11,249 bases of DNA from Streptomyces katrae (GTDB lineage: Bacteria; Actinomycetota; Actinomycetes; Streptomycetales; Streptomycetaceae): the NCBI RefSeq assembly GCF_000966975.1, contig NZ_JZWV01000713.1, positions 1 to 11,249 on the forward strand. Direction: 5' to 3'. Numbering within the stretch: position 1 is the first letter of the stretch; each line of letters begins with the position of its first letter. Position numbers and translations under genes: made by a program. Positions 8,493-11,249 of this stretch are shown here, piece after piece. The notes beneath the pieces were generated by a model. It had not been told where the DNA came from. It did no database searches and worked only from the letters and a program-made list of their open reading frames with translations.

Positions 8493-10064
8493 ATGGACCC
8501 GGTGATCGTCGTCGGCTCGGGACCCGTCGGACTCTCCCTGTCCCTCGCCCTGGCCGGCCACGGCGTGCCCTCCGTCCTCCTCGACGAGGGGCCCGGCAAG
8601 GACGAGCCCCGGCCCGCCCGCAGTGTCGTCCTGCACTCCGACACCGCGGCCATGGTCCAGCGCCTGGGCTGTACGACCCTGCGCGACGAGGGAGCCCGGT
8701 ACGCGGCCTGGCGCACCATGAGGCGCCGTCAGGAGACCCGGCGGATCACGTTCGAGGACCACCCCGCGCCCCTGCACCTCCCCCAGCACGCCCTCACGCG
8801 CGGGCTGCGCGCCGCCGCCGGCGCACACCCCCTGGTCCAACTGGCCACCGACACCAAGCTGGAGTCCCTGGAGCAGGACGACCGCGGGGTCACCGCCCGC
8901 ACCCGGGGCGGGGACACGACCTGGTGGCGCGGCAGCCACCTGGTCGGCTGCGACGGCGCCCGCTCCACCGTGCGCAAGCTCCTCGGCATCCGCTTCCCCG
9001 GCTGGACCGCCGTCGAGCGGCACGCCGTGGCCGCGCTGCGCGCCGAACTGCCCTGGCCCGGAGAGGCCTTGCTGCACCGCAACCCGCCGTCCGGGCCCGA
9101 GGAGATCACCGCCCGGCCGCTGCCCGACGGGATCTGGCGGCTGGACTGGCTGCTGCCGCCGCGCGGGGACCTCGTCACCCCGGACGCCCTCGTCACCCTG
9201 ATCCGCGACACCCTGGCGCTGTGGTGCGGGGGCAGCACTCCCCCGTACGACCTCATCGACACGGGCGTGCACATCCAGCACCACCGCCTCGCCCGGCGCT
9301 GGCGCGACGGCCGGGCCTTCCTCGCCGGGGACGCCGCACACCTGCTGGGCGCGCTCGGCACCCAGAGCGTCGAGGAGGGGCTGCGCGACGCGGAGAACCT
9401 GGCCTGGAAGCTGGCCCTGGACTGGCACCAGGGCGCCTCCGACGCCCTGCTCGACAGCTACGAGGGCGAGCGGCGCACGGCAGTCGCCGCCCGGCTGCGC
9501 GCCGCCGACCAGACCATGCCCGTCCTGCGCGGCGGAGCCGGCCTGCGCAGCCTCCTGCCGGGTTCGGGCAGGTCGGCCGAAGGCCTGCTGACCGACGGGC
9601 ACCTGGGCCGGGGCCCCCTGGGCGGCCGGCCGGTGTACGCGCCTCCGGTGGCCGTGCGCGAGGTCCCCACGGACACGGAGCCCGGCGGGCCCGTGGCGAA
9701 CGTACCCGTCTCCGCGCCCGACGGGTCCACCGTCCCGCTGCGGGACCTGCTGGGCCGGGGGAAGCTGCTGGTGCTGCTGGTGGCGCCGGGCACCGGAGTG
9801 TGGGACCGGCGCCACTGGGCGGGGGCCGGGCTGATGCCCCGGCTCGCCGCGGCCGTGACCGCGCTGCCGGTCCCGGCCGAGCTGCTGGTGGCGGACGCCT
9901 ACCCGGGGGCCCCGGCGCACACCGTGCTCCTGGTACGGCCCGACGGGCACCTCGCCGCGACCTTCGCGGGGGTCCGCCCGGCCGAGCTGTACGCGGCGGC
10001 GGACGCGGTGCGGGCGGGTGCTCCGGCGGGCGTCCCCGCCACACCCGCGCCCGTGATCGATTGA
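8493..10064 (+). CDS. FAD-dependent monooxygenase (aromatic hydroxylase type) with thioredoxin-like tail
   Basis: A 523-residue class A flavoprotein hydroxylase (PF01494-like). Such enzymes use NAD(P)H and O2 to hydroxylate an organic, usually aromatic, substrate. ATG 8493 has GGGAG (8481-8485) at 7-nt spacing. The in-frame ATG at 8370 lies inside the gluD terminator and is rejected. Motifs: dinucleotide fold VGSGPVG (7-13), the 'DG' motif at C153-D154-G155 (VGCDGARSTVRKLLG) and the 'GD' motif at FLAGDAAH (276-283, D280). After GDAAH the usual P-x-G-G-x-G-x-N run is replaced by LLGALGTQSVEEG. Residues from about 425 to 515 resemble the thioredoxin-like C-terminal domain of phenol- and polyketide-type hydroxylases, without a CxxC pair. 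The substrate is unknown. Its stop overlaps the promoter candidate of the next operon. Confidence 0.85.
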   Translation: MDPVIVVGSGPVGLSLSLALAGHGVPSVLLDEGPGKDEPRPARSVVLHSDTAAMVQRLGCTTLRDEGARYAAWRTMRRRQETRRITFEDHPAPLHLPQHALTRGLRAAAGAHPLVQLATDTKLESLEQDDRGVTARTRGGDTTWWRGSHLVGCDGARSTVRKLLGIRFPGWTAVERHAVAALRAELPWPGEALLHRNPPSGPEEITARPLPDGIWRLDWLLPPRGDLVTPDALVTLIRDTLALWCGGSTPPYDLIDTGVHIQHHRLARRWRDGRAFLAGDAAHLLGALGTQSVEEGLRDAENLAWKLALDWHQGASDALLDSYEGERRTAVAARLRAADQTMPVLRGGAGLRSLLPGSGRSAEGLLTDGHLGRGPLGGRPVYAPPVAVREVPTDTEPGGPVANVPVSAPDGSTVPLRDLLGRGKLLVLLVAPGTGVWDRRHWAGAGLMPRLAAAVTALPVPAELLVADAYPGAPAHTVLLVRPDGHLAATFAGVRPAELYAAADAVRAGAPAGVPATPAPVID

Positions 10065-10090
10065 CCGCCCTCGGCCACTCGTGGTTCACT
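10061..10090 (+). promoter_or_regulatory. Candidate promoter of the leader / dioxygenase / rhodanese operon
   Basis: TTGACC (10061-10066) overlaps the TGA stop of the monooxygenase. TTCACT (10085-10090) follows after 18 bp. Transcription would start near 10097-10098, which gives a short leader of about 40 nt before the Cys-rich peptide. The -35 is good and the -10 is imperfect. Confidence 0.4.
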
Positions 10091-10136
10091 CGCCGACATG
10101 ACCGGCAACGACGTACGCCTGTGGCGGAGGGTTCAC

Positions 10137-10184
10137 ATGGACCTGCTCCGCTATGCGGGCTGCGTGTGTCGCCCCTCCTGCTGA
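10137..10184 (+). CDS. Cysteine-rich regulatory leader peptide, MDLLRYAGCVCRPSC
   Basis: A 15-codon reading frame with a strong ribosome site (GGAGG 10126-10130, 6 nt before ATG), ending at TGA 10182-10184, 80 nt before the dioxygenase gene. Three of its last seven residues are cysteine (C9, C11, C15). Short actinobacterial peptides with Cys-rich ends preceding sulfur-metabolism genes are commonly annotated as putative leader peptides, and Cys-rich upstream ORFs in mycobacteria are reported to mediate cysteine-responsive attenuation. Ribosome speed over the Cys codons would therefore report charged tRNA-Cys and set expression of the two genes behind it. An in-frame upstream ATG at 10098 would give a 28-residue version, but it has no ribosome site. 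The coding call is strong by pattern; the mechanism is inferred. Confidence 0.8.
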   Translation: MDLLRYAGCVCRPSC

Positions 10185-10264
10185 TTCGCCCCTCTCCCGC
10201 GCGCCCCGCTGCCCTTCCGGGCCCGCGCGCCCCTTTCGCGAACCCCCAGGACGGTCACGTTCCC

Positions 10265-10798
10265 ATGTCTGCTCCCGTGCCCACGCACGCCCCCGCCCGC
10301 ACCTCCGCCCCCACCGCGGCGGAACTCCTCGACTTCGCCCTGCGCACCGCCGCCGACCCCGAGATCATCGACTCCCTCCCCCTCGATCCGGAGGGCCGGA
10401 CCTGGATCCGGCTCGACGGGCCGGGCGGCAGCGAGGCCTGGCTGATCGGCTGGCCGCCGGGCACCGGCACCGGCTGGCACGACCACGCCGAGTCCCGGGG
10501 CGCTTTCGCCACCGCCCGGGGCCGGCTCACCGAGCACTCCCTGACGGTGCGGCTGCCCTCGGAGGGGTGGCGGACCCTGGAGCTGACCCCGGAGGTGGAC
10601 CGCACCCGCAGCCTCGGCGCGGTGACCGGGCGGGCGTTCGGCGAGCACCACGTCCACGAGGTGCTCAACGAGTCCGACTCCGAGCACGCGATCTCGGTCC
10701 ACGCCTACTACCCGCCGCTCCCGCTGATCCGCCGCTACAGCCGCAGCGGGGCGGTCCTCAGGCTGGAGCACGTCGAGCGCCCGGCGGACTGGCAGTGA
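10265..10798 (+). CDS. Cysteine dioxygenase family protein (cupin thiol dioxygenase)
   Basis: A 177-residue cupin of the cysteine dioxygenase type I family, expected to oxidise a thiol (cysteine to cysteine sulfinate, or a relative such as 3-mercaptopropionate) with a mononuclear Fe(II) and O2 in the cytoplasm. ATG 10265 follows AGGACGG (10248-10254). The iron ligands are H72 and H74 (GWHDHAESRG) and probably H131 (HHVHEVLN). The S-x-H-x-Y triad is S144-H146-Y148 (SVHAYYPPL). R49 is in the place of the carboxylate-binding Arg. The position of the mammalian cross-linking Cys93 is Gly79, as is usual in bacterial enzymes. The first 18 residues are a Pro/Thr/Ala-rich tail of no clear role. The stop overlaps the next start. 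Cysteine versus another thiol cannot be decided from sequence. Confidence 0.88.
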   Translation: MSAPVPTHAPARTSAPTAAELLDFALRTAADPEIIDSLPLDPEGRTWIRLDGPGGSEAWLIGWPPGTGTGWHDHAESRGAFATARGRLTEHSLTVRLPSEGWRTLELTPEVDRTRSLGAVTGRAFGEHHVHEVLNESDSEHAISVHAYYPPLPLIRRYSRSGAVLRLEHVERPADWQ

Positions 10799-11196
10799 GC
10801 GGCGGCGCGGCCCCGGTGGGCATCGACGAGCTGCTGGAGCGGGTGCGGGCGACGTACACCCGTGTCGACGCGCGTTCCGCGTACGAGGAGTGGCGGGGCG
10901 GGGACGCCCTGCTGGTGGACATCCGCTACCAGGCGCTGCGCGAGCGGGACGGGGTGATCCCGGGGGCGGTGGTGGTGGAACGGAACGAACTGGAGTGGCG
11001 GCTGGACCCGCTGGGGTCCCACCGGCTCCCGGAGGCCGTCTCGCACGATGTGCGGGTGGTGGTGATCTGCAACGAGGGCTACGCGTCCTCGCTGGCCGCG
11101 GCCTCGCTCCACGCGCTGGGGCTCCGCCGGGCGACGGACCTCACGGGCGGCTACCAGGCCTGGCGCTCCGCGGGCCTCCCGACCGCCCCCGCCTGA
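10795..11196 (+). CDS. Single-domain rhodanese (sulfurtransferase)
   Basis: A 133-residue rhodanese-fold protein expected to carry sulfane sulfur on a cysteine persulfide. GTG 10795 overlaps the dioxygenase stop (GTGA, 10795-10798), so the two are translationally coupled. Landmarks: R27-S-A-Y-E-E-W (substrate-side helix), VDIR (41-44), VIPGAV (54-59), and the active-site loop VVICNEGYASS with nucleophile C92, the only cysteine. The final segment LTGGYQAWRSAGLP is the usual rhodanese end. The loop C-N-E-G-Y-A-S is of CdsH/GlpE-like size (six residues after Cys). Pairing with a cysteine-dioxygenase-family enzyme suggests handling of sulfite, thiosulfate or persulfide made during thiol breakdown. 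The exact donor and acceptor are unknown. Confidence 0.9.
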   Translation: MSGGAAPVGIDELLERVRATYTRVDARSAYEEWRGGDALLVDIRYQALRERDGVIPGAVVVERNELEWRLDPLGSHRLPEAVSHDVRVVVICNEGYASSLAAASLHALGLRRATDLTGGYQAWRSAGLPTAPA

Positions 11197-11221
11197 CGGT
11201 CGTCCGCTGCGCGGAGCCGTC
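11195..11221 (+). terminator. Candidate terminator after the rhodanese gene
   Basis: GACGG (11195-11199) pairs with CCGTC (11217-11221), and TCCGC (11203-11207) with GCGGA (11211-11215), around a TGC loop. This gives a 10-bp stem broken by a 3x1 internal loop, and it overlaps the TGA stop. No T-run follows, so termination here is plausible but not certain. The last 28 bp of the window show nothing further. Confidence 0.4.
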
Positions 11222-11249
11222 TCCCCGCCCCGCCCTTCGCCCGTTCCCC

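Follow-up and report, generated by a model that had tools for sequence, protein, structure and literature searches.

To address why a gene for a cysteine-oxidising enzyme should lie behind a leader that reads cysteine codons, we analysed a stretch of Streptomyces katrae DNA of 11,249 nucleotides (contig NZ_JZWV01000713.1; the window), near the end of which a cysteine dioxygenase (CDO) gene is followed by a rhodanese gene. The preliminary description, made from the letters alone, had named this pair, and the assignment is borne out by Pfam, as the CDO product matches CDO_I at 147.3 bits (cut-off 23) and the rhodanese product matches PF00581 at 51 bits (cut-off 22.2), and by the 4-bp overlap of the two frames, GTGA. 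A rhodanese match shares the locus with CDO in 28 of 31 other Streptomycetaceae loci. The puzzle that the description saw here, a leader that reads cysteine placed on an enzyme that oxidises it, is genuine. Our results indicate that the leader very probably switches CDO according to cysteine supply and that it likely does so as a translational attenuator. Taken whole, the best explanation is a cysteine-dependent translational attenuator that is ON when cysteine is short, to which we give an even chance. The features discussed are collected in Table 1.

Table 1. Leader, control elements and genes of the CDO-rhodanese operon; positions are those of the window.
Feature	Position	Strand	Remarks
Promoter-like element	10061..10090	+	TTGACC (10061-10066), 18 nt, TTCACT (10085-10090); read from sequence
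Leader ORF	10098..10184	+	28 codons, MTGNDVRLWRRVHMDLLRYAGCVCRPSC and stop; NF042934 match, conservation; probably leaderless
Stem of codons 10-18	10125..10150	+	CGGA(G)GGUUC-ACAU-GGACC..UCCG; holds SD-like CGGAGG and ATG 10137
Cys22 codon	10161..10163	+	TGC
Cys24 codon	10167..10169	+	TGT; Cys conserved family-wide, from codon counts
Anti-Shine-Dalgarno (tail)	10173..10180	+	codons Pro26-Ser27-Cys28; CCCTCCTG in the window, CCGTCCTG commonest
TTCGC after leader stop	10185..10189	+	pairs with GCGAA 10238-10242
GCGAA before CDO SD	10238..10242	+	partner of TTCGC
Shine-Dalgarno (SD) of CDO gene	10247..10254	+	CAGGACGG; predicted by folding to be sequestered by the leader tail
CDO gene	10265..10798	+	start ATG; Arg-type cysteine dioxygenase family protein, 177 aa; Pfam CDO_I
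Rhodanese gene	10795..11196	+	start GTG; single-domain, Cys in loop ICNEGYASS; PF00581

Relatives of the locus were collected by CDO protein search, and the best 80 of 556 confirmed stretches were compared with 17 loci of a class-wide draw and the window, giving 98 rows. A frame ending CVCRPSC had been proposed ahead of the CDO gene; it is present (ending GCVCRPSC and stop), lies far above chance and recurs in 79 of the 80 named relatives (the best 80 of 556), but the length of 15 codons ascribed to it does not hold. The frame has 28 codons and starts at ATG 10098; the match to the leader family NF042934 covers residues 6-24, and the family motif therefore begins before ATG 10137, the start that had been assumed. 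That ATG is codon 14 of the frame and is kept in 96 of the 98 Streptomyces rows. What had been called its ideal ribosome site, CGGAGG, is itself part of the coding frame and stays where codon 14 is not ATG: codon 14 is ATG in none of the 27 leaders of other Streptomycetaceae genera (CTG in 23), 11 of which keep CGGAGG, so the hexamer is not kept for initiation at 10137. A start there with a ribosome site of its own was rejected on these counts. The frame opens with ATG or GTG in 97 of the 98 aligned rows, and the exception (L055) has an ATG one codon further upstream.

The -10-like element of the window, TTCACT, ends 7 nt before the leader start; the corresponding distance is 7 nt in 90 of the 98 loci and 6 nt in 7, and TTGA stands 17 or 18 nt upstream of the -10-like element in all 98. 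This constant spacing suggests that the leader transcript is probably leaderless; a generic sigma-70 scan found no promoter. The -35-like TTGACC shares bases with the stop codon (10062-10064) of an FAD-binding monooxygenase gene that lies upstream. Within the leader, each of the nine pairs of the stem of codons 10-18 is formed in at least 95 of the 98 Streptomyces rows, with little variation. Membership in this stem would explain the use of the rare codon AGG for Arg11 in 95 of the 98 rows, against 19 of 1635 Arg codons in sulfite reductase (Sir) genes.

Beyond the relatives, the leader was found in all 18 class-wide-draw loci with a full match to this CDO (CDO1), the window's copy counted, and in 27 of 31 other Streptomycetaceae loci; it was not seen in a nineteenth class-wide locus, L110, where the CDO1 match is C-terminal only. 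The eightieth relative, L069, has the leader start and is deleted from Cys24 on. It is a natural mutant of the switch, in which the leader tail and the spacer are deleted and CAGGACGG is kept. The Cys codons are conserved, with Cys at position 22 in 98 of 98 rows and at position 24 in 97, while Cys28 is lost in 14. The conserved Cys of the family sits 11 codons after the His of HxDL and is encoded by TGT in 97 of 98 CDO1 rows (the 98th has lost it), 28 of 28 MoaD leaders and 30 of 30 Sir leaders; in Sir genes TGT accounts for 3 of 151 Cys codons. A rare TGT at the sensing position would fit a slow codon suited to a decoding sensor. Cys22 is absent from the Sir and MoaD sibling leaders, which have Ala (57 of 58) or Ser (1 of 58), and from 7 of the 27 other-genus leaders, five of them from one genus. 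The CDO1 leaders of L287, L290, L291, L293 and L297, all of one genus, end in VGALCTAG or similar, without Cys22, and the three of them that could be scored have no tail-SD pairing.

The leader matches NCBIfam NF042934, "putative leader peptide", at 36.9 bits (cut-off 27) over profile positions 1-19 of 19. Six matches to this family lie above the cut-off in the window's genome and four below it at E <= 1. Behind the former are genes for a sulfatase, a MoaD/CysO-like carrier with cysteine synthase, this CDO, a sulfite/nitrite reductase, a thiosulfate sulfurtransferase and a glutathione-transferase-like protein, the sibling names being our own reading of the downstream frames. Three of the matches below the cut-off precede a flavin reductase, an oxygenase and a transporter gene, and the fourth (L008) lies within a 456-codon frame and looks like chance. 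Among these leaders, L010 (G000:C50) ends AACCCCR, scores below the cut-off and has a symporter-like gene behind it, and L006 (G000:C96), before the glutathione-transferase-like gene, is a family leader without the conserved Cys (..CSAANPPHP..). At E <= 0.001, the family has 3-13 matches per genome in 41 of 41 Streptomyces genomes and none in 14 control genomes. All 30 sulfite reductase loci have a leader, as defined by the motif, ahead of the gene, and so do 28 of the 30 carrier loci (26 of 30 by a stricter rule). The codons TTG and AGT are rare in Streptomyces. In the Sir leaders (L241-L270), TTG GTG AGT and CAC GTC are identical in all 30 loci, which is an RNA-level constraint. At gathering scores, Rfam returned no known RNA family.

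What distinguishes the CDO1 leader is its end. The SD of the CDO gene, an odd one, is CAGGACGG in 90 of 97 loci and CAGGAAYGG in 7, and the last codons of the leader (mostly CCNUCCUG; commonly CCG TCC TG, in the window CCC TCC TG) are the reverse complement of CAGGACGG. Folding at 30 °C gave a probability above 0.5 for a helix between SD and tail in 89 of 94 leaders; the mean was 0.79, and the SD was unpaired at 0.06. Folding left out four of the 98, namely L086 (no SD match), L069 (its deletion misplaces the SD), and L059 and L075 (spacers above 140 nt); the omission of the last two favours the tail-SD reading, because both have an uncompensated tail change. As controls, SD pairing with the whole leader averaged 0.10 for the second Streptomyces CDO, CDO2 (n=27), 0.15 for MoaD (n=28) and 0.09 for Sir (n=29), each out of 30 loci, and a few of these leaders do pair with the SD (e.g. 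L181-L183, through the 5' part, L225 and L246). Random synonymous recoding of codons 25-28 lowered the pairing from 0.81 (n=43) to 0.51 (n=172), with Pro and Ser codon weights that are our own estimates. The second helix, TTCGC with GCGAA, has a block of at least five Watson-Crick pairs in 70 of 103 loci, against 0 of 103 for a control stretch downstream of the SD.

Some covariation accompanies the pairing. Three loci of one other genus (L272, L276, L279) combine U to C in the tail with A to G in the SD, converting U-A to C-G, and L271 and L273 have U-G at the same position; six of the seven other-genus leaders with this tail type fold the tail on the SD, the seventh being L279 (0.05). Across 96 of the 98 rows and these seven loci, 776 of 824 tail-SD cells are paired, against a maximum of 772 in 2000 shuffles that ignore relatedness, with the inserted A of 7 SDs taken as a bulge, which tilts the count towards pairing. 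The tail has changed without the SD in L277 and in four Streptomyces (L055, L059, L075, L105), and tail position 3 is mismatched in 25 of 103 loci, the window among them. The clear double change counts as one event and the pairing varies little within Streptomyces; moreover, the evidence from pairing is weakened by the fact that both strands are constrained otherwise, one as codons and the other as SD. Tail-SD pairing was scored in 21 of the 27 other-genus leaders, no SD being recognised in 6, and in the 14 loci of other genera with other tails it was found in none, with the leader kept. Outside Streptomyces the helix is thus confined to a few neighbours, and it probably arose later than the leader. 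SD sequestration was rejected as a general mechanism of the family, in which the sibling leaders rarely pair and the other-tail CDO1 leaders do not. The earlier idea that a leader with Cys codons controls the CDO-rhodanese operon is well backed by conservation, family membership and the anti-SD character of the last codons.

We then consider how a ribosome on the leader would affect the SD. Folding predicts that, with no ribosome present, the tail pairs with the SD, helped by UUCGC/GCGAA, and CDO translation would be low. A ribosome whose A site holds Cys24, Cys28 or the stop codon is predicted to cover the tail and break the pairing. With masks at these three positions, tail pairing exceeds 0.5 in none of 94 leaders, while a mask placed for Cys22 leaves the tail on the SD in 76 of 94. 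Even with the tail masked, the SD is unpaired only 26-28% on average. For masks with the 3' edge at +11, +13 and +15, the Cys22 position leaves mean tail pairing at 0.84, 0.81 and 0.66 (43 leaders), and the shorter masks still separate Cys22 from Cys24, although with them Cys24 opens the SD less (0.84 vs 0.42 at +11; 0.81 vs 0.13 at +13). On this modelling, the sign of control is not settled by anatomy alone, as the Cys22 mask and the Cys24/Cys28 masks predict opposite outcomes.

Simple kinetics favour one of the two signs. If ribosomes pause at each Cys codon and then continue, the tail would be covered longer in cysteine shortage, and the operon would be ON when cysteine is short. When Cys-tRNA is scarce, ribosomes would dwell at Cys24 and Cys28, the SD would be free more often, and CDO and rhodanese would be made. 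The operon would then belong to a sulfur-supply regulon together with its siblings (sulfite reductase, the sulfur carrier by cysteine synthase, sulfurtransferase and sulfatase), into which CDO and rhodanese may feed sulfite or sulfane sulfur. Given the switch, this is the sign towards which we lean, the opposite sign being a serious if lesser possibility. Among the points against it, 14 of 98 rows lack Cys28, where a stall would open the SD, while the non-opening Cys22 is present throughout; CDO mRNA rose in two Streptomyces on feather; and CDO would be expected to destroy cysteine.

The last point turns on the substrate, and the preliminary description had suggested that the enzyme might work on another thiol. 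The active site does not favour this way out. The CDO family residues H72, H74, H131, H146 and Y148 are invariant, position 144 is Thr in 19 of 90 loci and Ser in the other 71, which include that of the window, and position 49 is Arg in 36 of 42 relatives and 73 of 90 loci. We take R49, by a mammalian motif, to be the equivalent of mammalian Arg60, and CDO1 has Gly at the site of the mammalian crosslinking Cys93. With the CDO_I match, the His ligands, the Ser-His-Tyr triad and the Arg60 equivalent, the enzyme is of the Arg type, although its identity to the Arg-type CDOs of human and rat and to YubC of B. subtilis is about 20%. Because R49, the His ligands and the Tyr are kept, cysteine is the likely substrate. 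A 3-mercaptopropionate dioxygenase of the Gln type finds no support, as R49 stands where Gln is expected; Gln instead of Arg marks that type, according to PMC8050391. Yet the closest solved structure is the ergothioneine dioxygenase of Thermocatellispora (8qfl-8qfr), nearest in fold, which has Ser where CDO1 has Arg49. Ser replaces Arg49 in 10 class-wide loci, and neither the leader nor a rhodanese match occurs in any of these.

Cys-rich leaders also precede other CDO genes. CDO2, about 36% identical to CDO1, lies behind an unrelated poly-Cys leader (e.g. ...RCSCCCCSSC) in 29 of 30 loci of a separate draw (L181-L210), and in the window's own genome a second CDO gene (L121, G000:C1230) is likewise behind a poly-Cys leader. 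Its mechanism must differ, because the CDO2 SD is mostly unpaired with the leader (the mean of 0.10 given above). Of 13 further Streptomyces loci in the class-wide draw, 12 have no rhodanese match, and the thirteenth (L131) has both a rhodanese match and an RxHxD leader. Outside Streptomyces, where 58 of 63 matches were used (one with only 76 nt of upstream sequence), CDO lies behind an RxHxD or poly-Cys leader in 13 of 58 loci, of which at least L109 looks doubtful. The other 45 loci have no such leader by the same rule, which picks out none of the 58 reverse strands and 7 of 1160 dinucleotide shuffles. A minimal leader, MRCCC and stop, shared by several loci of one genus, occurs in L151, L160, L167, L170 and L180. 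Promoter-like GATTAT, or AATTAT in the case of L180, stands 7 nt ahead of it, and CTCCGG just past its stop is complementary to CCGGAG before the CDO start. L164 and L169, of the same genus as L151, carry an RxHxD leader (ending MRRHIDLKRTCTAICR and stop) at the spot of MRCCC, so leader types swap within one genus.

This recurrence, together with the conservation of the leader and its NF042934 membership, makes it very improbable that the frame is not regulatory and owes its conservation to another cause. That the leader acts chiefly on transcription, for example through Rho-dependent early termination, as may hold for its siblings, with the tail-SD helix as a minor layer, is doubtful. The spacer is C-rich, most siblings and the other-tail CDO1 leaders lack tail-SD pairing, and Rho was proposed for actinobacterial cys leaders in a comparative study of 2005 (PMC1262725); but a scan of 9900-11249 found no terminator-like site, and so no intrinsic terminator in the leader, and action on transcription leaves unexplained the tail-SD complementarity, the second helix and the codon choice that is friendly to pairing.

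The opposite sign of translational control deserves more weight, though we regard it as possible rather than likely: the leader would sense cysteine surplus, a stall at Cys22 keeping the helix shut and full translation of the leader opening the SD. This is the inverted control of the preliminary description, with which the geometry is compatible, as a Cys22 stall mostly leaves the SD shut, and against which simple kinetics speak: it needs ribosome loss at Cys22, since equal waits followed by continuation give the opposite sign. Conservation is on its side, as Cys22 is present in every CDO1 leader of the 98 rows and in none of the 58 Sir/MoaD siblings, although 7 of 27 other-genus leaders do without it; so is the enzyme, which keeps the Arg of cysteine-specific dioxygenases. 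Expression on feather, a cysteine-rich food, points the same way in part. In two Streptomyces, CDO mRNA rose 50- and 8-fold on feather relative to LB (PMC7181669), and 21.7- and 6.4-fold on feather at 96 h relative to 0 h (PMC12763843). The sulfate-assimilation genes, however, also rose at 96 h, variably (PMC12763843), which suggests that the culture may be short of internal cysteine, and the feather data thus cut both ways. Moreover, such mRNA changes need not stem from the CDO1 leader, and the two cdo genes of these studies may be CDO1 or CDO2. A tentative form of this alternative is that the addition of Cys22, two codons ahead of Cys24, and of the anti-SD tail turned a starvation attenuator into a surplus sensor.

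With either sign, the locus offers a concrete, mutable RNA switch with base-level predictions, in which a cysteine-reading leader sits on a cysteine-oxidising enzyme. If the operon is ON when cysteine is short, the actinobacterial CDO-rhodanese pair is to be re-read as sulfur supply. If the sign is inverted, codon placement in a leader can flip the sign of an attenuator, and cysteine leaders would govern both the supply and the disposal of cysteine, with codon position setting the sign. CDO genes repeatedly lie behind Cys-rich leaders of unrelated sequence (RxHxD type, poly-Cys and minimal MRCCC), which makes the question wider than one genus.

Parts of this picture are known already: NCBIfam catalogues the leader family, and actinobacterial Cys leaders are in print. 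In the literature searched, which did not cover the main mycobacterial paper, we found no link between CDO and a leader peptide or attenuator in Streptomyces, though that paper could hold one, and no description of an SD-sequestering leader tail in Streptomyces. With NF042934, annotated cis_reg_atten, the CDO1 leader shares the 19-residue motif end to end above the cut-off and the sulfur-gene surroundings; it differs from its siblings by the extra Cys22, in most cases Cys28, and the pairing of its tail with the downstream SD, which is uncommon in the Sir and MoaD leaders.

The closest likeness in working is to the polycysteine leaderless short ORFs of mycobacteria (Canestrari 2020). In the mycobacterial case the leader region reportedly sequesters the downstream SD. 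According to PMC9031893, leaderless ORFs of M. smegmatis with contiguous Cys codons set downstream translation through cysteine-dependent elongation speed; PMC13236596 describes uORF stalling that unmasks a paired SD, and these later authors (PMC9031893; PMC13236596) call the mycobacterial control translation attenuation. By analogy, this precedent, together with the kinetics, favours an operon that is ON when cysteine is short. Alike in the two systems are a Cys leader before sulfur genes, control by the speed of Cys decoding (here as proposed) and sequestration of the SD (here predicted for 89 of 94 folded leaders, with some covariation); a leaderless start, as in mycobacteria, is probable here from the promoter-to-start spacing. 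The leader scores 17.7 bits against NF042933, the Ms5788A Cys-rich leader, below the cut-off of 45. Since its Cys codons 22, 24 and 28 are interrupted, we liken the CDO1 leader to the mycobacterial attenuators in its working and do not count it as a member; unlike them, it has no Cys run, encodes a different peptide and sits on an enzyme of a cysteine-degrading type.
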